Below, piece by piece: positions 9,378 through 40,139 of a stretch of DNA of 42,336 nucleotides; within the stretch, counting starts at the first letter, position 1, and the number at the start of each line of letters is the position of its first letter. The notes beneath the pieces were generated by a model, which saw nothing but the letters and a program-made list of their open reading frames with translations, did not search any database and had not been told where the DNA came from. A program made the position numbers and the translations under genes. Origin of the DNA: Magnetococcales bacterium (GTDB lineage: Bacteria; Pseudomonadota; Magnetococcia; Magnetococcales; UBA8363); assembly GCA_015660855.1 (NCBI GenBank), contig JACSDG010000020.1, forward strand, positions 1-42,336, written 5' to 3'.

Positions 9378-9398
9378 CAAAGGTATGTACAGCAAAGG

Positions 9399-10451: not shown

Positions 10452-10567
10452 CTTCACATGTATTTATCCATAGGCAAAGTGGCGCATGCAGATACAGCAG
10501 GCACCGTGTCAGGATCATGTATCTCATCCGTTTTATGAACACAAGACCTGGCGGACTGGAAGAAAAA

Positions 10568-21677: not shown

Positions 21678-22282
21678 CCGAGGCAACACCCTATTTGTCG
21701 CGGATTCTCGTCGGCCTGATGAAGGGGGTGCTTTACAGAGAAAAGGATCCAAAGCTTTGGCAGTCCCTGCGTGAGCTTCAGGGGCGGGCCAGTGACCATG
21801 TTGGGGTTCTCGGTCTTGACTTGGTTGTGGATGAAGCGGAAGGGTATGCCTTTCTCAAGCAGAGGGTCGCCAATGCCGACGACGAAGCAGCAGATCTTCC
21901 CCGTTTGGTTACTCGGCGTCCGATGGGGTTTTCTGTCAGTCTTCTACTGGTGTTGCTGCGCGAAAAACTTTTGGAAGCCGATGCCAAGGGCGAAGATTTT
22001 CGTTTGATTCTGGGCCGTGACCAGATTATGGATGCCATCCAGCTTTTCCTCCCGGACAGCACCAACCAGGCCAAATTGATGGACAGGTTGGACGCCGATA
22101 TGGGCAAAATTGTGGATATGGGTTTTTTGCGACCATTGCCGGGGCAGGAAGGTCAGTTTGAGGTCCGGCGCATCCTGAAAGCCTTTGTTGATGCCCAATG
22201 GTTGGGTGATTTCAACCAGCGGCTGTCCCAGTATCGAACTTATTTGGCAGAAATGGTTGCGTCAGGCAAGGAGGGGGCATGA
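21674..22282 (+). CDS. jetB: Wadjet subunit JetB (DUF4194)
   Basis: A 202-residue DUF4194 protein, the MukE-like partner of the Wadjet complex. The core has YLSRILVGLMKGVLYREKD, SLRELQGRASDHVGVLGLDL and EAEGYAFLKQR, then TRRPMGFSVSLLLVLLREKL and a winged-helix-like LDADMGKIVDMGFLR segment. Length is typical for JetB. The start at 21674 overlaps the jetA stop and the stop at 22280-22282 overlaps the jetC start, both as ATGA, so the three genes are translationally coupled. JetB bridges the JetA kleisin and the JetC ATPase heads. Confidence 0.92.
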   Translation: MTEATPYLSRILVGLMKGVLYREKDPKLWQSLRELQGRASDHVGVLGLDLVVDEAEGYAFLKQRVANADDEAADLPRLVTRRPMGFSVSLLLVLLREKLLEADAKGEDFRLILGRDQIMDAIQLFLPDSTNQAKLMDRLDADMGKIVDMGFLRPLPGQEGQFEVRRILKAFVDAQWLGDFNQRLSQYRTYLAEMVASGKEGA

Positions 22283-25200: not shown

Positions 25201-25674
25201 ACCAGTGAATTGGACAGACGCTGGACGCGGAAGGTGACCGACGTGCGTAACTGGTTTGTATTCAGTGCTTCGGAACGCCGGCGGGAAGACCAGGTGGAAT
25301 ACGAACATTATACCGATTCCGGGGGCAAGTCGGGTGGCCAGAAAGAGAAGCTGGCCTATACCGTCCTGGCCGCCAGTCTTGCCTACCAGTTTGGTCTGGA
25401 TGGGGGGAGCGGTCCCTCGCGCTCATTTCGTTTTGTGGTGATCGATGAGGCCTTTGGACGGGGTTCGGATGAGTCTTCCCGTTTCGGCCTCAAACTGTTT
25501 CGCAGCCTGGGACTGCAATTGTTGGTCGTCACGCCGCTACAAAAAATTCATGTCATCGAGCCGTTTGTTGCCGCCGTGGGGTTTGTGCATAATCCCGATG
25601 GGGAGCGTTCCCTCCTGCGCAACCTGACCATCGAGGAGTTTCGCTCCGAACGCGATGCCAGGCGCGGTTTATGA
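22279..25674 (+). CDS. jetC: Wadjet subunit JetC (SMC/MukB-like ATPase)
   Basis: A 1131-residue SMC-like ATPase, the motor of the Wadjet complex. Walker A is GDIGSGKST (residues 55-63). Long coiled coils follow (about 260-460 and 640-1000) with a hinge-like middle region near 480-600 (RERP-type segment LPFAGELIRVRP). The ABC signature is KSGGQKEKLAYTVLAAS (about 1017-1033) and Walker B is FRFVVIDEAFGRGSDESS. All ATPase motifs look intact. The start overlaps jetB (ATGA). The stop codon (25672-25674) directly abuts the stop of the convergent phosphorylase-like gene with no spacer; in standard Wadjet operons jetD would begin here. Confidence 0.93.
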   Translation: MNGLATTLTLDLPEHDGPPLRSGFRLMRLEVFNWGTFDTKVWGLNVGGENALLTGDIGSGKSTLVDAVTTLLVPHHRINYNKAAGAEIRERNLRSYVLGYYKSEKGDTGASAKPVALRNFNNYSVILGVFRNEGFDSEVTLAQVFWIVDTMGQPNRFFVVCDGPLSIATDFGNFGTEIAALKKRLKACSGIEIYESFSPYGAAFRRRFGLENEQALDLFHQTVSMKSVGNLTDFVRNHMLEPFDVDPRIRALVAHYDDLTRAHEAVLKAKKQIARLTPLVADCDSHARQLGEVTVLRECREMLHPWFAGYKAGLLATRLEHLADEIRTSEARASAIAEEQRGYHQQQRDIERAIAANGGDRLKDLRQAIIKAEQERDDRKRRAFDHDAVVAELGFSAVREADAFLANRKRLVAERDGVEARRDAEENKRVEASVRLQSLRGEHKTLTEEIESLRSRPSNIPKRMLDLRESLCHAMGIAGGHLPFAGELIRVRPQEGVWEGAIERLLHVFALSMLVPDAHYARVADWVDSHHLSGRLVYYRVRKQGYSLTSTLEATSLVRKLEIKTDSEFYPWLENEVDKRFDYVCCDSMEQFRRESSKAITRSGQIKGGNERHEKDDRRRIDDRTHYVLGWSNMAKLSVLESQAEDLARRIQVEGDLIGKAQVAAKGFGERLQRLSKLETWTDFRDIDWRASAVEIEGLEREKKEIETTSDILQTLNVQLTGVMQELDRLAKEFTLVSNKGAVAADKHKKFSEDHRLACVQRDAGSASLRDQCFPLLDQMRPEVLGERKLTVESCTQAEHEMGEWLLKKIDNLDRLIMVLRDRIIKAMADHMAAYPLETREVDATLASCSEYRRMLTALETDGLPRFEADFKKQLNENAIREIANFQSQLKKERSNIEGRVERINLSLASIDYNPGRFIRLEAEPSQDVDIRGFQLDLRACTEGALTGSEDEGYSEAKFLQVKQIVERFRGREGTSELDRRWTRKVTDVRNWFVFSASERRREDQVEYEHYTDSGGKSGGQKEKLAYTVLAASLAYQFGLDGGSGPSRSFRFVVIDEAFGRGSDESSRFGLKLFRSLGLQLLVVTPLQKIHVIEPFVAAVGFVHNPDGERSLLRNLTIEEFRSERDARRGL

Positions 25675-27738
25675 TTACACGACGTTCTCCTCTATCCCCA
25701 TAAGAGGTCTGATCTCGTTGAAAAGTTTTTGATCGTGTGTAACGAGGCTAGAATCCAGCCTGATCAGATCCAGGAGCGGGAAGGTTGTAATGATCCACGC
25801 CAGAAGCTCTTCGTAGGCTTTTTGATCCCAATGCCTAAGTGGATTATGATCACAGATAAGATAAAAACGCTTGCCGGTTTTCTTCGCCTGGTCCAACTCA
25901 ATCAGAACGGTCCTTATCATATTAAGTTGGGATGATTCTAGAGCCTCTGTAGGAATCGCAACTCGTCTTGCCATATCATTGATAATAAAGTCTTTGGTTT
26001 TTTCCGATATCCCCCCCTCCGGCTGTGAAAGAAAATCGATTAACCGAATAGCATGAACGCCTGTGGGCCACTTGTAGTTGGTATTTGACCAGGCCACTTC
26101 CCGCCGATCGATGCCAGCCATGATGATTTCGGCCATGGACGCTGTTCCGGCCTGAATGGATCGAACATTCCCCAATCCTTCCAGTTTGTTCCATCGCTGC
26201 TCAATGCTCTCGCCAGCGTCGGTTTGTGAAACGAAAAGCCAGGGGAGAAGTATTTTGCTGATATTTACGATGGCTCGGCATCCATTGGTGTCTTTAGAAC
26301 TTTGCATGGATTGATAGGCATGCAGGAGAATATCTTTTGCGGCATTAAAATCAAGAGCCATCATTTTATCAATGATGTGGACCTGGTAAGTGGCCTGGAT
26401 TCTTGAGGGTTCCCCACGAAAGTCCATCACGCCCAGCTTGCTCCACAGGAGGTCCATGACTGAATTGGAGGTTGCCAAACTTTGAGCTATCTTCCTTTTA
26501 AAATTCTCTAATTCTTCCCAGGTTGGACAGAAAAGGCCGGACTGAATCAGCATGCGGGTATAGGATGCCGCAGTGTGGCTGGCATAATGGGTCTGCGTAT
26601 TATCTTGCAACGGTTTCGCAACGCTGATGACACCGCGAATGTTGAGGAATGGAATATTTTCCCGTTGGCATACGTCGTAGTTCTCTGAACCATTGTCTTC
26701 AAAAACGAGCACATCTTTCGGGAACATTCCAAGTGAGCCTTTAACGATTTTTCGATCAATGGATGCCAATTGACTTGGGAAGACTGCGGGTGCCCGCGTG
26801 GGCTTGGGATATGCCTGTCCAATCATCTCCTGATCATTCCATGCTGGTTTTCGGGTCGGTCTCTCCACATGTAAACATTGATTGAAAATTCGGGCCGATA
26901 AATAGTGATGTCTTATTTTTAATCCGAAAATTTCTTTGGATATAGTGTCGAACAGGGGTTTGGCATCGGCTATGATAAGGGTGTCCATGGCCACCACAAC
27001 ATCCCCAATCATGATTTTTTTTTCCGGAAGACCGGATGCGACCCCCAACACGAGTATGAATGCGGGAGAACAATCGGCAATCATTCGCTGGGCTGGGGCT
27101 GATGGGGGAGGGGATCCATGTTGGATCGCGATGCGGCATTTTCCTTCGGGGGTGTCGATGACGCCGATGTCGTAGGAGGTTGCCTGTCTCTGAATCCTCT
27201 TCGGTGTGATGAAGAGTGGTTTCAGCTTCTCGATGAGTGGGACATGCGCCGATTCATGGGTGAAAATGATGCCAAGATCGATGGTTTCCAGAAAGGCCGG
27301 TTCTTCCACACCTTCTTCATGGGGAAATACATCTGAAATGGTGTTGATAAATGGCTCTTGCGACTGTTGGATATCATCCGCGACAATTTTTATTCCCTCA
27401 ATGGGTATTTCCCCCATGGGCCAGCCATTGTCCGCCACCAGTCGAAGCGTGATGTTGCCTTTGACAGGTTTATTTGCGGCCGTCAGCAAAAAACGGGCTT
27501 CGCCATAGCTGCCTCCATGGCGGTGGATGACCACGACGGGTTCGCCAAGGGGGTTGCTGTCAAACAATGGAAAGGCATCCACCAGGATGGTCAGGGGGTA
27601 TTCCTCGGTTTTGAAGGGCCATTCATCTGTGCCCTCTGATTTTTTCCAACGAAAATCGACGCTCAACAGATAACGCTTCCCCACGGTGGCTGTGGAGGGA
27701 CAGGTGATGATGGGAACCAGGTCAATGTGAGGGTTCAT
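25675..27738 (-). CDS. nucleoside phosphorylase-like conflict protein with shared C-terminal domain
   Basis: A 687-residue protein in three parts. Residues 1-130 are beta-rich, starting TCPSTATVGKRYLLSVDF. Residues about 150-400 resemble the PNP/MTA-SAH nucleosidase fold: LGIIFTHESAHVPLIEKL, RIAIQHGSP, PAFILVLGVASGLPEKK, IGDVVVAMDT and LVFEDNGSENYDVCQ. Residues about 445-687 match the C-terminal domain of the TIR protein at 32838-34148 (IIMAGIDRREVAW, LSQPEGGI, VAIPTEALES, DQKLFNEIRPL). The ATG at 27738 overlaps the CHAT gene end, with GGGGA eight bases upstream. It is last in the five-gene minus arm. PNP-like domains occur as nucleotide-targeting effectors or sensors in bacterial conflict systems; that role is inferred here. 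Confidence 0.68.
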   Translation of the reverse strand: MNPHIDLVPIITCPSTATVGKRYLLSVDFRWKKSEGTDEWPFKTEEYPLTILVDAFPLFDSNPLGEPVVVIHRHGGSYGEARFLLTAANKPVKGNITLRLVADNGWPMGEIPIEGIKIVADDIQQSQEPFINTISDVFPHEEGVEEPAFLETIDLGIIFTHESAHVPLIEKLKPLFITPKRIQRQATSYDIGVIDTPEGKCRIAIQHGSPPPSAPAQRMIADCSPAFILVLGVASGLPEKKIMIGDVVVAMDTLIIADAKPLFDTISKEIFGLKIRHHYLSARIFNQCLHVERPTRKPAWNDQEMIGQAYPKPTRAPAVFPSQLASIDRKIVKGSLGMFPKDVLVFEDNGSENYDVCQRENIPFLNIRGVISVAKPLQDNTQTHYASHTAASYTRMLIQSGLFCPTWEELENFKRKIAQSLATSNSVMDLLWSKLGVMDFRGEPSRIQATYQVHIIDKMMALDFNAAKDILLHAYQSMQSSKDTNGCRAIVNISKILLPWLFVSQTDAGESIEQRWNKLEGLGNVRSIQAGTASMAEIIMAGIDRREVAWSNTNYKWPTGVHAIRLIDFLSQPEGGISEKTKDFIINDMARRVAIPTEALESSQLNMIRTVLIELDQAKKTGKRFYLICDHNPLRHWDQKAYEELLAWIITTFPLLDLIRLDSSLVTHDQKLFNEIRPLMGIEENVV

Positions 27739-29389
27739 GGGTCACGTCCCCTGGTTTTTCGGAGCAGGTTGCGCCGTTGAGGTGAAGGCAGACGTAGGGG
27801 TTTCCCAGGTACACATACAGAAATGTGGTCAGGAATTGCGCCCATTTCTGCTTGTCTTCCTCCTCAAATGGGAAGCCCATAGCGGCGTCATTTCTGAGTT
27901 TTTTAAGCACCCAGGCCGGGCGGGTCTCTTTGGAACTGGAATATTCATTCAGGAAATTTTCTGCCAACTGGGTGGCAACTTTGATAAGGACCGGTCCCAT
28001 GGTTCCGATGAGCGCATCCACCCCTTTGGACAAGAGATATTTTGACAGTCCGCCCAAACCACCATCCAGGTGCAGAAGACGGGCTGAGTGACAGGCGTTG
28101 ATGAAGAAGAACGGATGGTTGTTACCTGGGAAGGACAAGAATTCCAGGTTGTTCAGGGTCACAATATCTCCGGTCGACCCAAGTTCCATCATTGCATCTC
28201 TTTCCTTGGTTTGGGATACGAAGGCACCGTGACAGACAAGATAAGCCAGTCCTGGGTTAGTGGTTGGGTTATTAAAGGAATTGAAGAATTCCGCTGCGCT
28301 TGAAAATATGTGAGGACCGAGATTATTTTCATGTTGTTCTTTCCCAGGGAGTCCGGGATAAACCATGGCCTTGATGCCCGGATTAAGGCAACGTTTTTGC
28401 ATGGTTAGCAACCTGTTATGTCCGAAGTGACTCAGCGAAAGCCAGCGAGTGACCACCGCCTTGGATCCCAGCAGTGGCCATGAGGTTGTTGAATCGCCCA
28501 GAACAATCATTTCCCAAGGGATTTCGGACAGGGTCATATCGTGCAAAACCAAAACCAGATCTTCTGGGAAGTGCTCCAGAAGTTTACAGAGCCATTGGAC
28601 GAACTTGCCCAAGGCATCCTCAGAATACCGTATTATGGCAGCCATGAAGGCGTAGGAGTGTGCGCCAACGTTATCGGAATTGATATTAAAACTTTTGAAC
28701 CGGTTTGAATAACCTTCCGGAGGTTTCTCACATGAAAGTAGTGAAAGTGGGGTTGAACATGCGTTCCAGCCTTGTAATGTCACACCTCCTTCCGATTGTT
28801 GCAGCACATGGACGACCGCAACATTGTTCGGAAGTGAGGGGGGAATGGAGACCCGGCATTGCCTTTCCAGGAAATCTGGGTTTCGAGTGGAATCAATGGT
28901 GATGGATCGCGTTACAAGGCTTTGGGTGAAGCCTGGTTTATCTGGATGGGGTGATTCTAAAGCAGAAATATTAAGTTTAAACTCCCCTCCAGGGATGCCC
29001 TTGGGAACTGTCAGGAAAAAGTCGATAGCTTGATTGACATCTGCAACAGATATATCTTTTGCCCCATCTTGGATGGTCACCCTTGAGCCAGGAATCTCGA
29101 CCAACAGGCGAAAGGACGTCATTCCTTCCCGGATGTTCAAGGGTTGGCCAGGGGTGGTTGGCTGAGATGAACTTTGGAAGTTTATGGTCAGTCGGTAGGT
29201 TCGGTCCTCCCGGATGGTATAATTGCCTTTCTGGTCGCAGACATCCTCATGTGCCTTTCCGGTTGTGTGCTTGGCAGACAATTGCAGGTGCACGCCATAA
29301 TATGTTGGAGCGGCCTTTTGGATCCCTGAAGGTGGTCTACTTTCTGCCACTTGCCCGGCTGGTCTTAACAGACCCTGAAGCCAATTCAT
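27722..29389 (-). CDS. CHAT-domain caspase-like protease
   Basis: A 555-residue protein. The first 170 residues contain a beta-rich domain (YYGVHLQLSAKHTTGKAHED, YRLTINFQSSS, FRLLVEIPGS). The C-terminal CHAT domain (about 240-520) has IPWEMIVLG, MVYPGLPGKEQH, LAYLVCHGAFVS with catalytic His387, FFFINACHSARLLHLDG with catalytic Cys433, and SKGVDALIGTMGPV. The His/Cys dyad is intact, so a protease is expected. CHAT proteases in conflict and gasdermin-type systems are activated by upstream sensors and cut toxin or housekeeping partners; no gasdermin is seen here. The start overlaps the vWA gene stop (ATGA) and the end overlaps the phosphorylase-like gene by 17 bases. Confidence 0.85.
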   Translation of the reverse strand: MNWLQGLLRPAGQVAESRPPSGIQKAAPTYYGVHLQLSAKHTTGKAHEDVCDQKGNYTIREDRTYRLTINFQSSSQPTTPGQPLNIREGMTSFRLLVEIPGSRVTIQDGAKDISVADVNQAIDFFLTVPKGIPGGEFKLNISALESPHPDKPGFTQSLVTRSITIDSTRNPDFLERQCRVSIPPSLPNNVAVVHVLQQSEGGVTLQGWNACSTPLSLLSCEKPPEGYSNRFKSFNINSDNVGAHSYAFMAAIIRYSEDALGKFVQWLCKLLEHFPEDLVLVLHDMTLSEIPWEMIVLGDSTTSWPLLGSKAVVTRWLSLSHFGHNRLLTMQKRCLNPGIKAMVYPGLPGKEQHENNLGPHIFSSAAEFFNSFNNPTTNPGLAYLVCHGAFVSQTKERDAMMELGSTGDIVTLNNLEFLSFPGNNHPFFFINACHSARLLHLDGGLGGLSKYLLSKGVDALIGTMGPVLIKVATQLAENFLNEYSSSKETRPAWVLKKLRNDAAMGFPFEEEDKQKWAQFLTTFLYVYLGNPYVCLHLNGATCSEKPGDVTHEPSH

Positions 29390-31239
29390 GAAATGGACTC
29401 CTGCTCGACTCGCGGTCCGATGGTTCGCACCCAGGCTTTCAGGATTGCCGCATACTGCCCAGGCAGGTGAGAAAGGTACCTCGGTTGGGGATCCAGCAGA
29501 ACCACCTGGAGATTGCGTATCATCGCCAGGCTGCGGGCCTGGATGATGGCGTCTTCGATGCCTTTTGCTCCCACGTTTCCCGGTGGAGCGCGGTTGAGCA
29601 GGCTATCCTCCAACGGAACATTGCCGCGGCCATCGGTGATGATGACCAACCGGGCAAGGGTGGCGGCTCCCCGGCCATGTCCCATGGCTTTGCGAAGCAA
29701 CAGGCGGACCTGTCGGAAGCCATCTGCAAGGGGCGTCGCCTGGCCCCCCTCCGCTTGCAATCCACGGAGGATACGCGGGTCCAGCAGGTTGCGGGCCTCA
29801 AGCCGTTGGGCGCACCAGGGGTGTGCCGCATCGGCGGCCCCTACCCGAACCACACCGATACGTGCTCGCCGGACGTAGGCCCAGTGCAGATCGGGAAACA
29901 ACGCCTTTTCCCAATCCCGCCCGGTCACGGAGGTAAAGTCCAGTAGCAGGACGAATTGATGATCGGGTTTGGCCAGATAGCGATGGGCGCGCAGATCAGA
30001 AAAAAGGATGCTCAATCCATTGTTCACACGGGCATGGCTCGACCGATGTGGCACTGCTTGCCATTTTGCCGCTTCCAGAACGGTGGGGATGATGGCCATC
30101 TCGCTGGGATCCTGAACCGGCTTGGATCCGATGGGACGGCCATGGTGCTGTCCTTCGGCCCATTGCGTTCCCGACAGAGGACGCAGGGGTGAATTTTCGC
30201 GCAGACTGTCGGCATGATCCTCGGGATAGGGCTTTTCCTCTTCGCAAAACTCCAGGCCTTCCAGTGTTTCAGGGGGGTGTGGCTCGCCGGAAAAGACCGG
30301 ATCCTGTTCGTTGCCTTTCCCTGGATTTACTTCAGAAAAATTTGGATTCTCACCTGAAGGATCCTTCTTTTCCGGTTTGTTGGTATTTTTTTCGGATGGG
30401 TTGGCTTCCGGGGGCGGTAAAGCTGAGTTTTGGCGGGGACGGGGCGTATTTTTTCTTTCCAGGCCCAGCAGTTTCAGAGCTTCCTCTAGGTTTTCCTTTT
30501 GCACGGTGTTGCAACCCTGCATGCGGGCCAAGGCGATGGAGAGACGGGCCAGCGCAATGGTGCGGCGGTAGCCCTGAACGGATTCACCGGATATCGCTTC
30601 GGTGCCCGTCCATTCCATCAACCGATCCATGATAGTGCTGTCCAAGGTGGCCGAGCATTTCCTGGCCTGATCCAGGATTGTATTCCACCGGGTGGGGAGA
30701 GGAATTTCCCAGGTTTCTGATTGGGTCAGGCATTGGGAGAGCCGACATTGCCGCAGGTCTTTTCCATCAATGCGCCAGGCCAGGCGAATGGCCCATCGAT
30801 CCAGCAGATGCGGTGAAACCATGCCGACCGACGCCGAAGGGCAGGCCGGAGGAACACCGGACATGGCTTCCACACAGGCGCGGGCGGTTAATGGCTCCAG
30901 GGTAGAGAGATCGGGCAGGACCAGCAATCGTGGCACTTTCCCCTGGTCCGGTCCGGCCAGCAGACCGCTTTTCCAGGAAAGCCGTACCCCATTGGAATCG
31001 GAACGGGGTTGCCAGCATCCCCACATCCGGTCTTCGGTTTCTCCGCTCATGAGGGGAAACCACGCAACATTCTGGTCGTGAACTTGTGATAAAATGCGGG
31101 CGAACAGATCAGCGATTCCGGTCAGGAGCCATTCCGGGGCATCCCAAAGGAGAACCGATCCAAGGCCCGGCTCCAGGGCGGCTGCGCTGAGGGTCTGGAC
31201 CAGGCGGTCTGCCGCTGACATCCTGTTATTTGCGGGCAT
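29386..31239 (-). CDS. BchD-like AAA-remnant/vWA protein of a MoxR-vWA switch
   Basis: A 617-residue protein organised like magnesium chelatase subunit D. Residues 1-260 resemble an inactive AAA+ module (GSVLLWDAPEWLLTGIADLFA; no Walker A) with a helical lid RRTIALARLSIALARMQG. A Pro/Glu/Asn-rich acidic linker spans about 265-360. The C-terminal vWA domain (about 410-600) has QFVLLLDFTSVTGRDWEKAL, in which the MIDAS DxSxS is degraded to DFTSV, and VIITDGRGNVPLEDS. It pairs with the BchI-like ATPase upstream, whose stop overlaps this start by 14 bases. The ATG at 31239 is used; ATG 31221 is an alternative. Tetrapyrrole genes are absent, so chlorophyll synthesis is unlikely; a regulatory switch in the conflict operon is inferred. 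Confidence 0.75.
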   Translation of the reverse strand: MPANNRMSAADRLVQTLSAAALEPGLGSVLLWDAPEWLLTGIADLFARILSQVHDQNVAWFPLMSGETEDRMWGCWQPRSDSNGVRLSWKSGLLAGPDQGKVPRLLVLPDLSTLEPLTARACVEAMSGVPPACPSASVGMVSPHLLDRWAIRLAWRIDGKDLRQCRLSQCLTQSETWEIPLPTRWNTILDQARKCSATLDSTIMDRLMEWTGTEAISGESVQGYRRTIALARLSIALARMQGCNTVQKENLEEALKLLGLERKNTPRPRQNSALPPPEANPSEKNTNKPEKKDPSGENPNFSEVNPGKGNEQDPVFSGEPHPPETLEGLEFCEEEKPYPEDHADSLRENSPLRPLSGTQWAEGQHHGRPIGSKPVQDPSEMAIIPTVLEAAKWQAVPHRSSHARVNNGLSILFSDLRAHRYLAKPDHQFVLLLDFTSVTGRDWEKALFPDLHWAYVRRARIGVVRVGAADAAHPWCAQRLEARNLLDPRILRGLQAEGGQATPLADGFRQVRLLLRKAMGHGRGAATLARLVIITDGRGNVPLEDSLLNRAPPGNVGAKGIEDAIIQARSLAMIRNLQVVLLDPQPRYLSHLPGQYAAILKAWVRTIGPRVEQESIS

Positions 31240-32185
31240 GGGACAGGATCTCTTTCACCTTTTCGTTCTCCTGATCAGACCAGGGGAGGCGTTCCCCGCT
31301 GGCGGCTTCTGGACGGCGATGTTGCAAAACCAGAGGTGCTACCCGTTGCAAGTGTGCGTGGTGCGAAGTCTCGGAAGGTTCCATGGCGGCCAAAGCCATG
31401 GCAGCCCGGGCCAGTACCAGGTCGGATCGATGCCCCTCCACTTGAAAAGCCTCTGCAAGAGCGACACAATCACCGATCAGCTCTGACGATGGTTTCATTT
31501 CTTTGAAACGCTCCCGGGCCGAATCGAGTCTGTCTTTAAGGTTTTTCCGCTCCTGTTGCGTCTCTGGATCCGTCTCGTTCAGCCTTTGGCGCCGGTCCTG
31601 ATCCAGAACATTGGACAGAATCTGCCGCCGATTATTGCTGTCCATCTCCTCGGAGACATTGACCGACAATCCGAACCGGTCCAGCAACTGGGGGCGCAGC
31701 CCACCTTCCTCCGGATTCATGGTTCCCACCAGGGTGAATTCAATATTCCGTTTTTCCCGTTGTCCACCCTCGCGCTGCACCACCAGGATGTTGGTGGAAG
31801 CTACATCCAGAATGATGTTGACAATATGATCGTCCAGCAGGTTGATTTCATCCACGTAAAGAGTGCCACCATGGGCATCTTCAAGCAGTCCCGGCTTCCA
31901 TTCAAGTTTGCCGGCCATGAGCTTGGTAACGTCCCAACCTCCCACCACCCGATCCTCGGTGGCATTGATGGGAAGGGTGACGGGCAGTTCTCCGTCTTTG
32001 ACCGCGTGGGAAAAGGCACGTACCGCCGTGGATTTTCCGGTGCCTCGACGTCCGGAAAGCAGGACACCGCCAATCCGTGGCACCACGTAGGAAAGTTCCA
32101 GTGCCAGCTTGACCGCATTCTGACCCACCAGCCGATGGTACGGCAGAACGTTTCCAGAACCACCACCCATCGTCGGGTTGCTCAT
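31226..32185 (-). CDS. BchI/MoxR-type AAA+ ATPase
   Basis: A 319-residue AAA+ ATPase similar to magnesium chelatase subunit I. Walker A is SGRRGTGKST (about residues 44-53). Walker B is GTLYVDEINLLDDHIVN, the sensor region is FTLVGTMNPEEGGLRPQLLDRFGLSVNV, and a C-terminal lid has RAAMALAAMEPSETSHHAHLQ. The ATG at 32185 (MSNPTMGGGSGNV) has GGAGG seven bases upstream and overlaps the Trypco1 stop as ATGA; an ORF start 15 codons earlier is less likely. With the vWA protein it forms the MoxR-vWA unit of this arm. MoxR-vWA pairs usually remodel or unleash partner proteins by ATP hydrolysis; here the likely partners are the CHAT and phosphorylase-like proteins. Confidence 0.85.
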   Translation of the reverse strand: MSNPTMGGGSGNVLPYHRLVGQNAVKLALELSYVVPRIGGVLLSGRRGTGKSTAVRAFSHAVKDGELPVTLPINATEDRVVGGWDVTKLMAGKLEWKPGLLEDAHGGTLYVDEINLLDDHIVNIILDVASTNILVVQREGGQREKRNIEFTLVGTMNPEEGGLRPQLLDRFGLSVNVSEEMDSNNRRQILSNVLDQDRRQRLNETDPETQQERKNLKDRLDSARERFKEMKPSSELIGDCVALAEAFQVEGHRSDLVLARAAMALAAMEPSETSHHAHLQRVAPLVLQHRRPEAASGERLPWSDQENEKVKEILSHARK

Positions 32186-32586
32186 TGGGAGCCTCCGGAA
32201 GAGGTTTGGCCCCGATTGGCCAGATTCCATTTGAGGGTCACTTCCAGTTGCGCTTCGCCCCCCACCGTGACCAGTACGGCTCCGGCTTTTCCATCCATTT
32301 TGATGCCCAGTTTCACCTCCACCTCATCCGGGCGGGTTTTCCGGGAGATGGCCTCGATTTTTTCCACCAACCCTTCTGCACAGTTTTGGATCAAAACAAC
32401 CCCTTCCTCGAACAGATCCCGGGCGCGCTCGTAGGTTGCATTGGCGAGGGAGCTGCCGCCGAGGAACCCATCATCCGCGTCGATGGCTGTTGCATTCCCT
32501 TTCGATACGGTGGGAAGGTCGTCCACCTCAATCTGGATGATAACCTCCCGGCCACCAATATTTGAGATATTTTTCAATACAGGCAT
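32182..32586 (-). CDS. Trypco1-like (trypsin-co-occurring domain 1) protein
   Basis: A 134-residue alpha/beta protein with the layout of the Trypco1 domain: VIIQIEVDDLP, a helix with ARDLFEEGVVLIQNCAEGLVEKI, then the paired strands PDEVEVKLGIKMDGKAGAVL and EAQLEVTLKWN. The family is known from NTP-dependent conflict operons next to trypsin, MoxR or STAND genes; its biochemical role is not established. The ATG at 32586 has AGGAG nine bases upstream. It is the first gene of the minus arm and its stop overlaps the MoxR start. Its strategic first place suggests a small regulatory or inhibitory subunit, which is inference. Confidence 0.68.
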   Translation of the reverse strand: MPVLKNISNIGGREVIIQIEVDDLPTVSKGNATAIDADDGFLGGSSLANATYERARDLFEEGVVLIQNCAEGLVEKIEAISRKTRPDEVEVKLGIKMDGKAGAVLVTVGGEAQLEVTLKWNLANRGQTSSGGSQ

Positions 32587-32837: not shown

Positions 32838-34148
32838 ATGGAGACAACACCGCCTTCCATCGGAAATATGGAATATGAATACGACGTTTTTCTGAGTCAT
32901 GATTCACGTGACAAGGTGGCGGTTGAAAAACTGGCCAATCGACTCAAGCAAGATGGTTTACGGGTTTGGTTTGACGCGTGGGTGATTAAGCCTGGAGATT
33001 CAATTCCTCTTCTTATTCGAAAAGGTTTTGAAACATCTCGGGTGATGGTGTTGGTCCTATCTCGTCATTTCGCTGGTGCGAAATGGTCTCAAATGGAGCT
33101 AGGAACAGCCATTTCTCGTGATCCAACCAATGAAGAAAGACGGTTTATTCCTCTGAGGTTGGACGATTCCAAGATTCCAGACATTTTGATCCAGTACGGG
33201 TATGTCGATTATTGCCAGGAGAATGGTTATCAGCAACTTCTGGCAGCTTGCAAGCGCAATACTGCCGGGGAGGAGAAGGAACAGGAACCCAAAAGCGCGG
33301 ATGATCGCGCTGCCTACAAGCGCAACACCGAAAAATTGTTCAACAAACTTAAACAGGACATTGCCAAAACCCTGGCAGGTTCCAACGCGGCCATGGATGC
33401 ATTGGAGGCGAATGCGAACACGGAGGCAGGCACGCCGGAGGATCGGGCTGTGCAGTTGATGGAAAGATTGATCGCCATGGAATTTACCCTCTGCAAGAAT
33501 CGTTTGCTGGCGGCCCACAAAATACTGGCCGGGAATCGCGATCGCGCAGGCCAGAAGGTGATCGAAAAGGTGGCCAGGAAATTGATTCCATGGCTTTATG
33601 TCACCAGCAGCCGTGACAGCGGATCCATCGAGGGGGAATGGGGGGAGAATGCCTCCCTGGGGTATGTTCTCAAACTGCCGGCGGGCATCGCATCATTCGC
33701 CTCCATCATCATGGCGGGGCTGGACCGGCGCGAGGTCTTCTGGGACTCCCTAGAGGGAAAATGGCCCATCGCCGAACAAGGTGGCCGGTTGAGTGGTCTC
33801 ATCGGACAACCGGAAAGTGGCATCACGGAGGCGACCTGGGATAACGTGGTGGACGACCTGGGAAAACGATCTCAAATTCCTACTGAAGCACAGAATCTCA
33901 GCAGGAAGGATAAGATCCAGCCCATCATTATTGAACTGGAGGAGGCCTTTAAGGAGTCAGGCGTCCGTGTATTTTATCTGATCGATTATCGTCCAATCAA
34001 CCAATGGGACCGGATCGCCTATGAAGATCTGTGCAAACGGATCCAAAATGAGTTTCCGACACTGGCATTGGTTGCAATGGACTCGAACTTGCTGACCAGG
34101 GATCAAAAGCTTTTCAATGAAATCCGTCCACTTTTGCTTACGGAGTAG
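32838..34148 (+). CDS. TIR-domain effector with shared C-terminal domain
   Basis: A 436-residue protein. The TIR domain (about 12-150) starts YEYDVFLSHDSRDK and has GLRVWFDAWVIKPGDSIP, MVLVLSRHFAGAKWSQMEL with the likely catalytic Glu87, and FIPLRLDD. TIR effectors of this type commonly degrade NAD+ or make nucleotide signals. A charged helical linker follows (about 150-190). Residues about 195-436 match the end of the phosphorylase-like protein: IPWLYV, ASIIMAGLDRREVFW, IGQPESGI, IPTEAQN, VFYLIDYRPINQWDRIAYEDL and DQKLFNEIRPLL. AAGGA lies upstream of ATG 32838. The downstream MoxR gene starts two bases after the stop. The first 400 bases are A+T richer than the following genes. Confidence 0.85.
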   Translation: METTPPSIGNMEYEYDVFLSHDSRDKVAVEKLANRLKQDGLRVWFDAWVIKPGDSIPLLIRKGFETSRVMVLVLSRHFAGAKWSQMELGTAISRDPTNEERRFIPLRLDDSKIPDILIQYGYVDYCQENGYQQLLAACKRNTAGEEKEQEPKSADDRAAYKRNTEKLFNKLKQDIAKTLAGSNAAMDALEANANTEAGTPEDRAVQLMERLIAMEFTLCKNRLLAAHKILAGNRDRAGQKVIEKVARKLIPWLYVTSSRDSGSIEGEWGENASLGYVLKLPAGIASFASIIMAGLDRREVFWDSLEGKWPIAEQGGRLSGLIGQPESGITEATWDNVVDDLGKRSQIPTEAQNLSRKDKIQPIIIELEEAFKESGVRVFYLIDYRPINQWDRIAYEDLCKRIQNEFPTLALVAMDSNLLTRDQKLFNEIRPLLLTE

Positions 34149-34150
34149 CC

Positions 34151-35140
34151 ATGAGTTCACATGATTGCATCCCTTTGCCCAGGGCGGACCAACCCTGGGT
34201 TCAGGTTGATTTCAAGGATGGCGGGGAGGTGGCGGATCAGGTGCATCTCCTGACATTGGAAGAGATTCACGCCATCAATGCCGCCATCGCCGCCGGCAGG
34301 CCCCTTCTGGTGCGGGGAGAGCCTGGAACCGGGAAGAGCCAGTTGGCGCGGGCGGCGGCCAAAATGCTGGGGCGGGTGTTTATCTCGCATGTGGTGGATT
34401 CCCAGACCGAATCCCGGGATCTGCTCTGGAGCTTCGATGCCGTCCATCGTCTGGCCGAGGCGCAACTGGCGGCGGCCTTGCGCCAGGAACCGGAGACCGT
34501 CCGGGAGGGGTTGCAGGTGGCCCGGTTTGTCCAGCCTGGTCCCCTGTGGTGGGCTTTTGACTGGCCGGGGGCAAGCAAACAGGCCGCACTTTCCGGCGGT
34601 GAGGAACCCACCCAGAACGATGGCGGTGTCTGGAAAAATGGCAGTGTTTTTCTTCTGGACGAGATCGACAAGGCGGAACCGGAGGTGCCCAACGGTCTTC
34701 TGGGGGTTCTGGGCAACCGCGTCTTCACACCCAAAGGCCATGGACAACCGGTGCGTGCCAACGAAACTCTGCCCCTGGTGATCATCACCACCAACGAGGA
34801 GCGCGCCCTGCCCGATGCCTTCCTGCGCCGCTGTCTGGTGCTGCACCTGCAACTGCCCCAGGGCGAAACGGATTTGAAAAAGTTGCTGATGCAACGGGGT
34901 CAGGCCCATTTTCCCCAGGCCGGGCAGGGGGTGCTGAAAGAGGCCGCCGACCTGCTCCATACCCATCGCCGGTTGGCCGCGGAGGAACGCATCACCCCGC
35001 TTCCCGGTCAGGCGGAATATCTGGATCTTCTGCGCGCGGTCCTGAAACTGGGCAAGAGCCAAAACGAACAAATAACAATGTTGCAGGTGGTGGCTCGGTT
35101 CACCCTGAAGAAAAATGCGGATCCCAAGACCCTGGTGTGA
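34151..35140 (+). CDS. MoxR-family AAA+ ATPase (second copy)
   Basis: A 329-residue MoxR-type ATPase. Walker A is RGEPGTGKSQLARAAA (about residues 54-69). Walker B is VFLLDEIDKAEPEVPNGLLG, sensor 1 is LVIITTNEERALPDAF, and the Arg finger region is LRRCLVLHLQLPQ. An insertion with TESRDLLWSFDAVHRLAEAQ follows the Walker A helix, as in MoxR proteins of conflict loci. GGAG lies five bases before ATG 34151, inside the end of the TIR gene. It is followed 15 bases later by the SAV_2336-FGE fusion, which carries a vWA-like domain, so the two probably form the second MoxR-vWA pair of the locus. It belongs to a different MoxR branch from the BchI-like ATPase in the minus arm. Confidence 0.87.
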   Translation: MSSHDCIPLPRADQPWVQVDFKDGGEVADQVHLLTLEEIHAINAAIAAGRPLLVRGEPGTGKSQLARAAAKMLGRVFISHVVDSQTESRDLLWSFDAVHRLAEAQLAAALRQEPETVREGLQVARFVQPGPLWWAFDWPGASKQAALSGGEEPTQNDGGVWKNGSVFLLDEIDKAEPEVPNGLLGVLGNRVFTPKGHGQPVRANETLPLVIITTNEERALPDAFLRRCLVLHLQLPQGETDLKKLLMQRGQAHFPQAGQGVLKEAADLLHTHRRLAAEERITPLPGQAEYLDLLRAVLKLGKSQNEQITMLQVVARFTLKKNADPKTLV

Positions 35141-35155
35141 GGCGGGTTTTCTGTC

Positions 35156-37720
35156 ATGAGCGTATCAGACAAAACAATATTCCCCCGGGGAGGCAGCGGT
35201 TATGCGGATCTGCTCATCGCCTTTGATAAGGGTGGTCCGGAGGTGCTGGAAGCGATGGCCGGGCTGGTGGGGTTTGGGCAGGAAACCAGGTCCGGACAGG
35301 TTGTCAAAGCGGAAGGTACCTCCTCCCTTGAACTTTTTGACCAAGCGACAATCCAAACCGAACCGAAAAAGTTTCATCTCCCCGACCAGCTTCCCATCCC
35401 ATTCTGGCATCTGGTGCAATGTGAGTTCCTCACCCCCCTGCCACGAGCGCGTGTCCCAGCGGAAAAAGGGGAGGACCAGGACCCCCGGCCCCGGATGCCA
35501 TCCGGCATCCGGCTTGGCGGTTGGAACGGGGTGATGACCCGCGTGCGCGCCCTGGGCACGGTGAAGGTGCCGGGGCGGACGCCGGATCTGGGCCGGGTCG
35601 TGCAGTGCATTGTCCAGGGGCGGGTATTGGATCATCTGCCCCGTCTGCCCCGTCGTCGCTGGGGCTTGGGGGTTCAGATCATCCTTGATCGTGCCGAACG
35701 GTTGATGCCTTTTCAGGATGACCTGGATTGGGCCGCCCGGCGTCTGGCGGCGTTGTTTCCCCGACCGGCGGTGGAGTTCGTTCTGCTGCGGGAAGAGTAT
35801 GGTCATCCCATCATTGTCGCACCGGGAAACCGCTATAAAAAATATTCCATCCCCCCTGCGGGTACTCTGGTGCTGGCCCTGGGGGATATGGGATTTTTGG
35901 CCCCCGATGCCGCCCGCAAGGCGGCCTTTTGGGAGCAATGGGGCGCGGAACTTTGTCGTCACGGTTGTCGCCCTCTGGCCCTGTCGCCGGCTCCGGTCTG
36001 GCGCATGCGGCCTCGGTGGCTGCCCTCCTGGCTTCTCCTGCCCTGGAAGAAGGGTGGGACGGAAACCAGACTCTCGGAGGCGGAAAGGATCGCCCAAACC
36101 GAGCGGTTGCTGGCACTCCTGGCTCCGGCGGTACGCATCGAGACCGGGTTGCTGCGGGAGATTCGTCTGCTCCTGAGCCACGAGGCGGATGCTGGCACCG
36201 AGGCCGACTGCTGGACCCACCCCGCCATGGCGGGTCGCTCAACCATGGGTGGCACCCTGGACCCTGCCGCCCTGGACTGGCTGTGGCCTCGGTTCGCGGG
36301 AGAAAAAGATGTCCTGAAAAAACAGGTGGTGGCCACTCTGCGGCGTTGGCACAACCGGGAAGGGTTGGCCCGGGAGGTGTGGGACGAGGAGGTTTTGCGC
36401 CTGCCGGCCTCCCTGGCCGAGAATGATCATTCTGCCGCCCGCAGGCGTTTTAAAAGACTCGCGTCCAAGGTGGTGGGGTCGGATCCGGGTGGGGCCTGGT
36501 TTCGCCGGGTGCATCGCCGTGCCGACCCCACCGCCCTCTACCAACATGGCGATCTGGAGCTTAAGGCGGTGCAGGACATGATGTACCATGCCGCCTTTGG
36601 CGTGGATCCGGATCATCCCCCACCGCCGGGCTTTGATCTGCGCCACCTGGGGACGCTCCATGAGACTCCGGTGACCATTCCCCTTTCCCAGCAGGGAGAC
36701 CACCTGGTGGCGGGGGCCGCTGCCGGCGGCAGCCCCTTGGGAGCAATTCACAGCCGTCAGGATCAGGTTCTTCTGGAGCCGGTGCCTTTTGTTCTCCCCG
36801 GCGCAGCCTCGCTGCTCCATCTGCAAGGGGATGGCAAACAAGCCACGGCACCGCTTCCCAAAAGATCGGCATTTTTGATCAAGAGCGACTGCGAAATATT
36901 GACCTTCGGCCAGATGGAAAAACCCTTGTGGGCCGAAGCCGTGGGCCGCGACGGTCATGGCCTGTGGGTGCGGATTGCCGTTCCCGGTCCTGGGTCGCAA
37001 CCAGTAACCCAACGTTTGCGTTGGATTCCCCCAGGACGGTTTCTCATGGGATCCCCGAAGGAGGAGCATGGGCGTATGGAAACTGAAGGCCCGCAACATG
37101 AAGTGATTTTCAAGCAGGGCTTCTGGCTCTTCGATACCGCCTGCACCCAGGCCCTGTGGCAGGCGGTGATGGGGGGCAAACCCAGTAAGTTCCGATCCCC
37201 GGACCAGCCCGTGGATAATGTAGATTTTAATAATGTGCAAAATTTTATCGAAAAAATCAACCAGGTCCATTCCGACCTGAAATTGACCCTCCCCAGTGAA
37301 GCACAGTGGGAATATGCCTGCCGCGCCGGCACCACCACGCCGTTCAGCTTTGGCGCGGACATCACCCCGGAGCAGGTGAATTATGATAGCAATTATCCCT
37401 ACCGGGATGGACCTAAGGGGAAATACCGGGGGCAGACGGTTCCGGTGGCCAGCCTTCCATCCAATCCCTGGGGGCTTTACGAAATGCAAGGCAATGTCTG
37501 GGAATGGTGTGCGGATGTTTGGCATGACTCCTATGCGGGTGCTCCAACGGATGGCAGCGTCTGGGATGGGCCGCCGGAGCTGCGCGTGATGCGTGGCGGT
37601 TCCTGGCACTACTATGCCAGGTACGTGCGGGCGGCTTGCCGTTACTACGGGTCCCCGGCGGGCCGCGACGTCGACCTTGGCTTTCGTTGTGCCCGAGCTT
37701 ACGACCGGATGGATTTTTGA
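35156..37720 (+). CDS. SAV_2336/vWA-like protein fused to a hypervariable FGE-fold (C-type lectin) domain
   Basis: An 854-residue fusion. Residues about 1-500 resemble SAV_2336 N-terminal-like proteins, with a degraded vWA-type domain (WGLGVQIILDRAERLMPF, AVEFVLLREEYGHP) and a lid-like helical region. The FGE-sulfatase fold runs from about 618 (LRWIPPGRFLMGSP) through LPSEAQWEYACRAGT and NPWGLYEMQGNVWEWCADVW to GFRCARA. The Cys pair that makes formylglycine in true FGEs is absent (HYYARYV at that place), so it is a binding scaffold, not a sulfatase activator. Residues about 813-847 are encoded by a DGR-type variable repeat. It probably senses a ligand and signals through the MoxR ATPase just upstream. 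Ribosome site upstream of ATG 35156 is weak (GAGG). Confidence 0.8.
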   Translation: MSVSDKTIFPRGGSGYADLLIAFDKGGPEVLEAMAGLVGFGQETRSGQVVKAEGTSSLELFDQATIQTEPKKFHLPDQLPIPFWHLVQCEFLTPLPRARVPAEKGEDQDPRPRMPSGIRLGGWNGVMTRVRALGTVKVPGRTPDLGRVVQCIVQGRVLDHLPRLPRRRWGLGVQIILDRAERLMPFQDDLDWAARRLAALFPRPAVEFVLLREEYGHPIIVAPGNRYKKYSIPPAGTLVLALGDMGFLAPDAARKAAFWEQWGAELCRHGCRPLALSPAPVWRMRPRWLPSWLLLPWKKGGTETRLSEAERIAQTERLLALLAPAVRIETGLLREIRLLLSHEADAGTEADCWTHPAMAGRSTMGGTLDPAALDWLWPRFAGEKDVLKKQVVATLRRWHNREGLAREVWDEEVLRLPASLAENDHSAARRRFKRLASKVVGSDPGGAWFRRVHRRADPTALYQHGDLELKAVQDMMYHAAFGVDPDHPPPPGFDLRHLGTLHETPVTIPLSQQGDHLVAGAAAGGSPLGAIHSRQDQVLLEPVPFVLPGAASLLHLQGDGKQATAPLPKRSAFLIKSDCEILTFGQMEKPLWAEAVGRDGHGLWVRIAVPGPGSQPVTQRLRWIPPGRFLMGSPKEEHGRMETEGPQHEVIFKQGFWLFDTACTQALWQAVMGGKPSKFRSPDQPVDNVDFNNVQNFIEKINQVHSDLKLTLPSEAQWEYACRAGTTTPFSFGADITPEQVNYDSNYPYRDGPKGKYRGQTVPVASLPSNPWGLYEMQGNVWEWCADVWHDSYAGAPTDGSVWDGPPELRVMRGGSWHYYARYVRAACRYYGSPAGRDVDLGFRCARAYDRMDF
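37591..37697 (+). repeat. DGR-type variable repeat VR1
   Basis: A 107-nt segment at the 3' end of the SAV_2336-FGE gene. It is 92/107 identical to VR2 (38630-38736). Fourteen of the 15 differences fall in first or second codon positions, giving His/Asp, Tyr/Phe, Tyr/Leu, Tyr/Asn, Tyr/His, Gly/Trp, Pro/Leu, Gly/Leu, Asp/Leu, Val/Asp and Asp/Asn swaps. A 28-nt constant block (37615-37642) lies between the variable codons. It ends in CGTTGTGCCCGAG, common to both copies, where an initiation (IMH) site would be expected. Confidence 0.82.
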
Positions 37721-37784
37721 ACCTGAACAGATTATCTTCCATGGCGCGTGCGGGGAAAAAAAACGCCGGGCCGAAACGTGTGAT

Positions 37785-37829
37785 CGGCGGTGTGTTGGTC
37801 GCTTGGCGAGGGCTTACCGCCGGTTTTTT
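37785..37829 (+). terminator. candidate terminator/hairpin after the first FGE gene
   Basis: CGGCGGT (37785-37791) pairs with ACCGCCG (37816-37822) around a 24-nt loop, followed by GTTTTTT (37823-37829). It lies between the two FGE genes and overlaps the leader of the second. It may attenuate read-through, or serve as the hairpin that commonly follows DGR variable repeats. Confidence 0.45.
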
Positions 37830-37844
37830 CAAGGTATCACCGTC

Positions 37845-38747
37845 ATGAACCTTCCCTTGCACACCGATCCCCTCTGGCATCCGTTGGTCGATGGTTTCCC
37901 CCCGGCATGGGCTTCCGGCTGGGGTCAGGATCGGTTTGGTGTTTTTATTGAGTTTACCCTGCAAGGTGTCCAACAGCGTCTGCGGTGGATTCCGCCGGGT
38001 CGGTTTCTTATGGGATCGCCCGCGGATGAGCCGGGGCGTTATCCTAATGAAGGACCGCAACGTGAGGTGACCTTGAGCCAGGGTTTCTGGCTCTTCGATA
38101 CCCCCTGCACCCAGTCCTTGTGGCAGGTGGTGATGGGGGAGAATCCCAGCCAATTTCAATCCAACAACCGGCCCGTGGAGCAGGTGAGCTTCGTGGAGGT
38201 GCAGGAGTTTCTCTCCCGCATCAATCAAGTCTGCCCCGGCCTGGACCTGACTCTGCCCAGTGAAGCGCAATGGGAATATGCCTGTCGGGCGGGAACCACT
38301 GCGGCCTTGTATTCCGGTGCAATCACCATTCTGGGTGAGCGCAATGCGCCAGCCTTGGACACCATCGCCTGGTATGGCGGCAATAGCGGCGTGGAACCTG
38401 CGGAATTGCCCAATGGCCAGGACTCTTCGGGTTGGCCGGAAAAGCAATATCCCCATGAACGCGCTGCAACCCATCCGGTGGCCATGAAGGATCCCAATCC
38501 CTGGGGCCTGTATGACATGTTGGGAAACGTCTGGGAATGGTGCGCGGATGACTGGCACGATTCCTACGAGGGCGCACCCGTAGATGGCCGGGTCTGGGAA
38601 GGTGACGGGCCGTCGGGGCAGCGTGTGTTGCGTGGCGGTTCCTGGGACTTCCTTGCCAGGTACGTGCGGGCGGCTTGCCGTAACCACTGGTCCCTGGCGC
38701 TCCGCCTCGACAACCTTGGCTTCCGTTGTGCCCGAGTTCAGTCGTGA
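37845..38747 (+). CDS. stand-alone FGE-fold (C-type lectin) protein with DGR-type variable end
   Basis: A 300-residue FGE-sulfatase-fold protein, paralogous to the C-terminal domain of the gene upstream. It has LRWIPPGRFLMGSPADEPGR, FWLFDTPCTQSLWQVVMGEN, LPSEAQWEYACRAGT, YDMLGNVWEWCADDWHDSYE and LRGGSW...LGFRCARV. The formylglycine-generating Cys pair is missing (DFLARYV at that site). Residues about 263-297 correspond to VR2. ATG 37845 (MNLPLHTDPLW) with AAGG ten bases upstream is chosen; the frame is open farther upstream, but that stretch overlaps the previous gene's end and does not look coding. No signal peptide is seen, so a cytoplasmic sensor is likely. DGR target proteins commonly use this fold. 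Confidence 0.8.
   Translation: MNLPLHTDPLWHPLVDGFPPAWASGWGQDRFGVFIEFTLQGVQQRLRWIPPGRFLMGSPADEPGRYPNEGPQREVTLSQGFWLFDTPCTQSLWQVVMGENPSQFQSNNRPVEQVSFVEVQEFLSRINQVCPGLDLTLPSEAQWEYACRAGTTAALYSGAITILGERNAPALDTIAWYGGNSGVEPAELPNGQDSSGWPEKQYPHERAATHPVAMKDPNPWGLYDMLGNVWEWCADDWHDSYEGAPVDGRVWEGDGPSGQRVLRGGSWDFLARYVRAACRNHWSLALRLDNLGFRCARVQS
38630..38736 (+). repeat. DGR-type variable repeat VR2
   Basis: Partner of VR1 at a distance of 1039 bases, at the extreme 3' end of the stand-alone FGE gene. Constant third-codon bases and the shared 28-nt block show that the two copies come from one template, with change confined to 11 codons. Downstream of CCCGAG the two loci diverge completely. Confidence 0.82.
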
Positions 38748-38777
38748 GCCGGGCAAGCAGCAGGCAGGAGCGGAGCG

Positions 38778-38830
38778 GCCCATGTCCGGGGCCGCCCCAA
38801 GCGGAGCGCCGGGGTGCGCCGGACATGGGC
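38778..38830. repeat. inverted repeat downstream of VR2
   Basis: GCCCATGTCCGG (38778-38789) and CCGGACATGGGC (38819-38830) form a perfect 12-bp stem around a GC-rich 29-nt loop. It starts 41 bases after VR2 and 30 bases after the gene's stop. DGR target genes often carry a hairpin or cruciform just after the variable repeat that favours retrohoming; this one fits the position, but its loop is larger than in the Bordetella phage example. There is no T-run. Confidence 0.55.
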
Positions 38831-38927
38831 TGCGGAGCAACCAGTCATTGCCCCGGAGGGGCATCATGTTTTTTCAGGGCACGGTTTTGGGTGTTGAATG
38901 GGTAACAACGCAACCTTCCAAGTCGTG

Positions 38928-40139
38928 ATGAATACCCGATGGACTGTCCCTGAGGACATCAACGACCAGTTGTTGCGCGTGTGGGACCAGGGACGCATCC
39001 TGGCCGCCCGGTTTGGCGAGGCCTCCCTGTTTCCCCTGCCGGTTCGTTTTCACCGCCCCAGCTCAAAGGATATGGCGGGGTCTTTCGGTGCCGTGCAGGA
39101 TTGGATCCGGCTCCTGGAGCAGGGAAGCCGCGTATCCCGTGGATTTGGCTATGACATCATTTGGGAAGAGATTAATCATCGTCAGATTGGCCGTAATGCC
39201 CTGCCGCGCGGCATTCAAGTCGCCACCGAAGCCGATGCCCTCCGTCTGATTGGCAAAACCCGGGAAGCGGAGCGGTTTTCCCATGTGACCCGAATCACGC
39301 ACGATACCTTTCCAGTTCTCGATGGTTGGTTGGCGGACCATCCCATGGTTGCGCTGAAACACGCCGATGCATGGGATCGGGTGTTGGCGATATTGTCCTG
39401 GTTTTGCCGCCATCCCCGCCCCCATTGTTATCTTCGCCAGGTGGACATCCCCGGGGTGGATACCAAATTTATCGAAGGGCGACGGGAACTGTTGTCGGAA
39501 TTGCTCAACCTAGTCTTGCCAGCGGATGCGATTGATACTGCGGCCACGGGCACCAAGGGTTTTGCGCAAAGGTTTGGTCTCAGATCCAAACCGTTCCGGG
39601 TTCGCTTTCGCCTCCTGGATCCCGTCCTTTCCATTGCCGGGTTGACCGATCTGACGGTGCCCTTTGAACAATTGGCCGCCAGGCCTTTATTGGTTCGCCG
39701 TGTGTTTATCACCGAGAACGAGATCAATGGCCTGGCCTTTCCTGCGGCACCCGAATCCATGGTGATTTTCGGCCTGGGCTACGCCCTCGACCAGTTACGT
39801 GAAATATCCTGGCTTGGCGAAAAGGAGATCCATTATTGGGGGGATATCGATACCCATGGGTTTGCCATTCTTGACCGCCTGCGCGCTATTTTTCCCGAGG
39901 CCAGATCCTTTCTGATGGACCTGGACACCCTGTTGGCCAACCGTGATCTTTGGGGCAGGGAGGAAAAAAAATGTACCGCTGATCGGCTTGAGCGATTGAC
40001 GGATTTTGAACGCTCGGTATTCGACGCCCTCCGTGACGATCATTATGGCGAAGGGGTGCGTCTGGAACAGGAACGTATTTCGTTTTCCCGTGTTGCACAG
40101 TTTGTGGATGCCCTTGGCCAAAACATTGGCCGGGATTGA
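38928..40139 (+). CDS. jetD: Wadjet nuclease subunit JetD (DUF3322/DUF2220, Toprim-like)
   Basis: A 403-residue JetD homologue, the nuclease that cleaves plasmid DNA held by JetABC. The N-terminal DUF3322 part has WTVPEDINDQLLRVWDQGRIL and WEEINHRQIGRNALPRGI. The C-terminal DUF2220/Toprim part has RRVFITENEINGLAFP (catalytic Glu) and IHYWGDIDTHGFAILDRLR (Asp-x-Asp), so the active site looks intact. ATG 38928 (MNTRWTVPED) matches the usual JetD start; ATG 38898 is an alternative. It stands 13 kb from jetC with the CHAT/TIR/FGE module in between. The closest upstream gene on the same strand is the FGE gene, 180 bases away, so it may now be transcribed with the TIR arm. Confidence 0.9.
   Translation: MNTRWTVPEDINDQLLRVWDQGRILAARFGEASLFPLPVRFHRPSSKDMAGSFGAVQDWIRLLEQGSRVSRGFGYDIIWEEINHRQIGRNALPRGIQVATEADALRLIGKTREAERFSHVTRITHDTFPVLDGWLADHPMVALKHADAWDRVLAILSWFCRHPRPHCYLRQVDIPGVDTKFIEGRRELLSELLNLVLPADAIDTAATGTKGFAQRFGLRSKPFRVRFRLLDPVLSIAGLTDLTVPFEQLAARPLLVRRVFITENEINGLAFPAAPESMVIFGLGYALDQLREISWLGEKEIHYWGDIDTHGFAILDRLRAIFPEARSFLMDLDTLLANRDLWGREEKKCTADRLERLTDFERSVFDALRDDHYGEGVRLEQERISFSRVAQFVDALGQNIGRD

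Follow-up and report, generated by a model that had tools for sequence, protein, structure and literature searches.

Two adjoining genes on a Magnetococcales contig as probable remote targets of a diversity-generating retroelement, one of them joined to a template-type flank

What rewrote the near-identical 3' ends of two adjoining genes on a contig where no reverse transcriptase (RT) is found? The question is raised by a stretch of Magnetococcales DNA of 42,336 nt, here called the window, which is contig C137 of a genome (G000) of 4.52 Mb in 238 contigs. An initial annotation, made from the letters alone, took both genes for targets of one diversity-generating retroelement (DGR). The explanation that we favor overall, with a probability of roughly 0.9, is that both are remote trans targets of a DGR on another contig of the same genome (C39), and that their cluster came about by deletion between the variable repeat (VR) of a target gene A and the template repeat (TR). 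The two genes, which carry C-type lectin (CLec) folds of the FGE kind, and their repeats are as follows.

35156..37720, + strand: gene 1, target, 854 aa; FGE-sulfatase domain (PF03781, E 2.7e-43) at residues 623-847
37591..37697, + strand: VR1, variable repeat of gene 1; TR homology starts at 37569
37845..38747, + strand: gene 2, target consisting of the FGE/CLec domain only, 300 aa; PF03781, E 2e-43
38630..38736, + strand: VR2, variable repeat of gene 2; TR homology starts at 38608

Gene 1 combines an N-terminal extension without a Pfam match and a C-terminal FGE/CLec domain. PDB matches of gene 2 include PvdO (5hha) and the Treponema denticola variable protein TvpA (2y3c), a DGR target. An FGE/CLec domain with a VR at its 3' end is a standard ligand-binding scaffold of DGRs. 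When the gapless alignment of VR1 and VR2 was recomputed, 92 of 107 positions were identical, and the 15 differences were distributed as first described, with 14 at codon positions 1 or 2 and a single one (37684) at position 3. The 28-nt identical block lies at 37615-37642. Each repeat indeed lies at the 3' end of an open gene whose FGE domain is C-terminal, VR1 ending 23 nt before the end of the gene 1 stop codon and VR2 11 nt before that of gene 2. Third-position identity between the genes is 0.51 in the upstream FGE domains and 0.97 inside the repeat. Such a pattern of differences is not chance.

The initial annotation had placed the RT and the template outside the window and proposed a genome search for an adenine template with an adjacent DGR RT. 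Neither an RT nor a TR was found inside the window, so action on its genes must be in trans; both were found on contig C39, together with an HRDC-domain accessory gene. A profile search of the genome returned four RVT_1 matches, one of which, on C39, has three more copies of the repeat around it. When up to three mismatches are allowed, the conserved 26-nt core has exactly five copies in the genome, namely the TR, the two C39 targets and the two window genes. The C39 locus reads TIR, MoxR, target A with its VR, HRDC gene, RT, TR, target B, and its parts relevant here are listed below.

C39, between the MoxR and HRDC genes: target A with VR, 838 codons
C39:68642-69124: HRDC-domain accessory gene; PF00570, E 3e-19
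C39:69121-70140: DGR-type RT, 339 aa; RVT_1, E 5.9e-11; motifs IGALTSQ and YMDD
C39:70317-70449: TR, adenine-rich, directly after the RT gene
C39:70607-71500: target B, short FGE

By far the best PDB match of the C39 RT is the 8ub7 series (E 2.4e-44), which we take to be the RT complex of the BPP-1 DGR. The enzyme is also 61% identical to a Thiohalocapsa RT, and HRDC has been given as an alternative to avd (PMC3240598). The RTs on contigs C238 and C170 were rejected as candidates, having only weak matches to the DGR RT (23-37% identity).

The divergence of all four VRs follows the adenines of this template. The 107-nt core of the TR holds 21 adenines and 86 other bases. Against it, VR1 has 11 of the adenines replaced and 3 of the other bases changed, VR2 11 and 2, and the two C39 VRs 9 and 1, and 14 and 2, respectively, with hypergeometric p values from 3e-7 to 1e-10 for the four. 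The same holds for 31 VRs of related loci, drawn from Alpha- and Gammaproteobacteria plus two congeners, where 393/680 adenines and 34/2296 other bases are changed. The proposal that the differences between VR1 and VR2 stem from DGR adenine mutagenesis thus stands for 12 of the 15, which fall on adenines of the C39 TR (hypergeometric p 4e-8). It does not stand for the other three, at 37613 and 37646 (C>T, gene 1 only) and the T/C difference at 37684, close to the repeat's 3' edge.

VR1 is 84-86% identical overall to the TR and the C39 VRs. Compared with the C39 targets, the window genes have a synonymous identity of 0.52-0.58 across the FGE domain, rising to 0.96-1.00 within the repeat, and third positions of VR2 agree with those of the C39 gene B VR at 35/35 sites, compared with 0.50 upstream. 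Because synonymous identity jumps within the repeat only, the repeat is best read as rewritten from a common template, as retrohoming predicts. The C39 RT and its HRDC partner would copy the TR RNA, random bases would go in opposite the TR adenines, and the mutated cDNA would replace the homologous 3' end of the targets, two adjoining on C39 and two on the window contig. We infer the action on the window genes in trans from these comparisons of sequence.

The two window genes differ in what follows their repeats. A conserved stretch comes after the TR in 15 loci and runs GAGCTCACGACCGG, a hairpin, GAACAGA, GGTAG and a terminal stem. The predicted RNA has 21 pairs, 12 of them with at least one compensatory change, and an Rfam search of the TR flank gave two matches, both far below gathering scores. 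The BPP-1 counterpart of this stretch is a folded spacer that recruits the RT complex and also primes the synthesis of cDNA (PMC12875486). VRs end in GAGTTC, and inverted repeats with a GCGGAG loop follow 39/47 VRs compared with 1/15 TR flanks. Deletion of the BPP-1 inverted repeat reduced homing but did not abolish it (PMC12875486). The elements of both kinds at these loci are as follows.

C39:70436-70604: TR spacer RNA, conserved and covarying here and in 14 related loci
37688..37842, + strand: 3' spacer RNA of the TR type, fused to VR1; match to covariance model R1 at E 8e-20
38775..38833, + strand: long inverted repeat (hairpin/cruciform), the expected recipient-site element, downstream of VR2

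Elsewhere in the genome the spacer has a single copy, the one after the C39 TR. The gene 1 copy is partly degenerate, with an apical deletion, and scores 81 bits compared with 127.5 bits for the real TR spacer. The gene 1 protein ends in GFRCARAYDRMDF, a tail that is of the TR type when tails and flanks are compared. DNA folding of the inverted repeat gave z scores of -4.7 after VR2, -7.2 for C39 A and -5.9 for C39 B, and no hairpin/cruciform was found after VR1 (z +0.7) or after the TR (z -0.8). Thus gene 2 has the VR-type 3' end followed by a hairpin/cruciform and gene 1 does not. By its sequence, gene 2 shows every recipient feature. Gene 1, with its 3' flank of the TR type and no VR-type cruciform, has probably been crippled as a target or was once a target in cis. 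That both genes are targets of one DGR is upheld insofar as both match the TR; however, they are not equivalent, gene 1 carrying the TR-type flank.

This flank bears on how the window cluster arose. The gene order TIR-MoxR-A-B is that of C39 minus HRDC, RT and TR. Window positions 37001-37697 are colinear with C39:67475-68171 (target A and its VR), while 37569-38817 are colinear with C39:70317-71569 (TR, spacer and target B), and the repeat is exactly where the two alignments overlap. The TR-type spacer stands after VR1, with no copy after VR2. The ancestral locus would have been a full TIR-MoxR-A-HRDC-RT-TR-B locus. If VR(A) and TR, as direct repeats, recombined with each other, HRDC and RT would be lost in one step and gene 1 would be left with the 3' flank of the TR, after which the window targets would depend on an RT elsewhere. 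We infer that the window cluster probably arose by this recombination. A second RT-less locus was found on contig C8 of a congener, G004. There, a 655-aa metallophosphatase-like protein (domain assigned by eye) has an FGE end, a TR-type tail and a spacer that scores 139 bits, its sequence not being among those from which the model was built. An FGE-only gene with a VR-type flank comes next, and a search of the G004 genome found nothing closely related to the C39 RT. A literature search on VR/TR recombination, incomplete in coverage, returned nothing on topic.

Several observations weigh against remote targeting by the C39 DGR as we describe it. At core position 63 all four VRs have C and the TR has T. 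Because the C is common to all four VRs, the change is one of the TR itself, after which no VR can have been overwritten across this site. Gene 1 carries two non-adenine changes of its own. The locus on C39 and the window lie on separate contigs of the draft, and ongoing mutagenesis today would have to be deduced from one genome of the species. An unlikely alternative builds on the same points: both window VRs could be fossils from a time when the locus had its own RT, with no later action in trans. The TR-type flank, the private changes and the lack of a cruciform at gene 1 would fit, as would the absence of the private T of the TR from every VR. However, VR2 equals the C39 TR at 84/86 non-adenine sites and matches the VR of C39 gene B at all third positions. 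In gene 1, non-adenine changes number 2/85 in the VR, with the TR-private site excluded, compared with 17/136 in the adjoining spacer, which has 37 gap columns besides (Fisher p 0.012). The low divergence of VR1 relative to the spacer suggests that VR1 was refreshed after the fusion, although protein constraint could explain part of it.

It is rather improbable that events ran the other way, an RT cassette having been inserted into an A-B cluster like that of the window, with the TR as a copy of the gene 1 end. The alignment itself is symmetric, since A-B with the cassette (C39) and A-B without it (window) are all that it contains. However, the AHDR-type tail and the spacer RNA belong to TRs in 15 loci of several genera, and other VRs lack them. 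Because the flank belongs to TRs across these 15 loci, we regard its presence at gene 1 as derived. RT-less hybrids, moreover, were seen only twice, both times in the genus of the window.

An error of assembly or binning that falsely joined VR and TR repeats is to be considered in a draft assembly where VR(A) and TR are 91% identical, yet we hold it to be extremely improbable. On either side of the joint, identity to C39 is only 74-76%, too low for a collapsed C39 copy; the tetranucleotide profile of the window matches that of C39 (r 0.966), and an equivalent arrangement occurs in the assembly of another species. Diversifying selection on a ligand-binding loop of ordinary paralogues, without any retroelement, is barely credible: the genes are paralogues and positive selection on a surface loop could give changes at codon positions 1 and 2, but the variable positions are predicted by a TR adjoining a DGR RT, and selection on protein gives no jump in synonymous identity from about 55% to 96-100% exactly in the repeat.

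The 3' end of gene 1, a diversified repeat followed by a TR-type spacer RNA, admits a further and very improbable idea, that the gene is a hybrid of target and template whose mRNA could serve the C39 RT as a second, adenine-poor template. If so, the selected variant of gene 1 would be passed to other targets, and a one-way diversifier would become a copier of useful variants between genes.

Homogenised VR-like repeats are also present in two other congeners, three in each (positions 9018-11080 within G005:C142:76001-95000; G006:C64). Neither a close relative of the C39 RT nor a TR spacer was found in these genomes, and the repeats are either orphan targets or served by an RT that lies in an assembly gap. 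The genome of the window holds a second DGR, on contig C180, with its own TR and TIR/NACHT/FGE targets. Positions below are those within locus L038 (C180:5001-24540).

9043-9138, - strand: TR2
7585-7680, + strand: VR
10524-10619, - strand: VR
within 14001-14160, - strand: third VR, decayed

Two of these VRs obey the adenine rule, with 13/19 adenines and one other base changed in one and 16/19 adenines and two others in the other. In the third, 11 changes lie outside adenines, and this repeat looks abandoned. FGE-sulfatase matches are unusually many in the genome (n=22), most of them without a VR by eye.

Upstream of gene 1, the target cluster of the window begins with two further genes.

32838..34148, + strand: TIR-domain protein, 436 aa, first gene of the cluster; PF13676 TIR_2, E 4.4e-28
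34151..35140, + strand: MoxR-like AAA+ ATPase, 329 aa; PF07728, E 1.6e-14; PF20030 bpMoxR, E 6.4e-9

A TIR gene occupies the equivalent place on C39 (C39:63293-64714; PF13676, E 5.7e-28), and the MoxR genes of the two clusters share about 70% nucleotide identity. The TIR protein is likely the effector or adaptor of a conflict system and the ATPase likely its signal transducer. Because the VRs lie in an FGE/CLec ligand-binding domain beside TIR and MoxR genes, the targets would, by analogy with published DGR-linked conflict systems (PMC7159879, PMC10907252), be the diversified sensors of this system, and diversification would most likely change the ligand binding of the sensor. No Pfam match to vWA or VMAP domains was found in 32838-38747. 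The cluster is set within a type I Wadjet system that is split in the window, with contiguous jetABC at 20229-25674 and jetD (38898-40139) about 13 kb downstream, so that the TIR-MoxR-target genes lie between jetABC and jetD. The island around the target cluster was probably acquired, because a search of the eight genomes of the genus found jetD in this one only. A divergent set of four genes (25675-32230, - strand), including a MoxR ATPase (31226-32230) and a CHAT protease-like protein (27722-29389), is possibly a second MoxR conflict system.

These results indicate that a remote DGR target can be recognized from raw sequence, without an RT at hand, through inverted codon-position divergence, and they add a MoxR/TIR example in a genus rich in DGR-linked FGE loci. 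The joint of VR and TR sequence seen in both gene 1 and G004 offers a simple route by which VR/TR recombination would lead to loss of the RT and dependence in trans. Genes 1 and 2 form a natural experiment on whether the cruciform or the TR spacer flank decides the receipt of mutations, and the covarying spacer RNA provides a search model that marks TRs of the C39 DGR lineage. Systems of this kind are known: Doré et al. 2024 published closely similar loci, action in trans among their features. New to us are the covarying model of the spacer and the two instances of a gene that joins VR and TR, and no priority is claimed.

The closest known systems are the clade-5 DGRs of Thiohalocapsa PB-PSB1, above all DGR 8 of clade 5A (Doré et al. 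2024, PMC10907252). The clade 5A layout, with MoxR upstream of an extended target and a short CLec-only target, is found both in the window (34151-38747) and on C39. As here, the Thiohalocapsa loci have a short CLec-only second target, TIR and other effectors nearby, and several DGR loci in one genome. For Thiohalocapsa DGRs 4 and 5, action in trans was deduced from non-adenine sites that agree perfectly with the DGR 2 TR (PMC10907252). Loss of the RT in Thiohalocapsa was ascribed to arrays resembling miniature inverted-repeat transposable elements and to transposons, whereas the joint described here falls within the VR/TR repeat, and unlike in the Thiohalocapsa DGRs one target carries the TR spacer RNA. 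The DGR of BPP-1 (Guo et al. 2011, PMC3240598; PMC12875486) shares TR/VR adenine mutagenesis, RT homology, a structured RNA spacer after the TR and an inverted repeat after the VR. It differs in having Avd in place of HRDC, an Mtd target in place of the FGE type and the order TR-RT in place of RT-TR, while the C39 system has remote targets. The MoxR/VMAP ternary conflict systems (Kaur et al. 2020, PMC7159879) likewise combine MoxR, a TIR effector and a DGR-linked FGS/CLec domain, although the window cluster, by Pfam, has no vWA or VMAP domain. Finally, TvpA of Treponema denticola (2y3c) is, like the window targets, a CLec protein of the FGE type with its VR at the extreme 3' end, and targets of the TvpA type are surface lipoproteins (Doré et al., PMC10907252).

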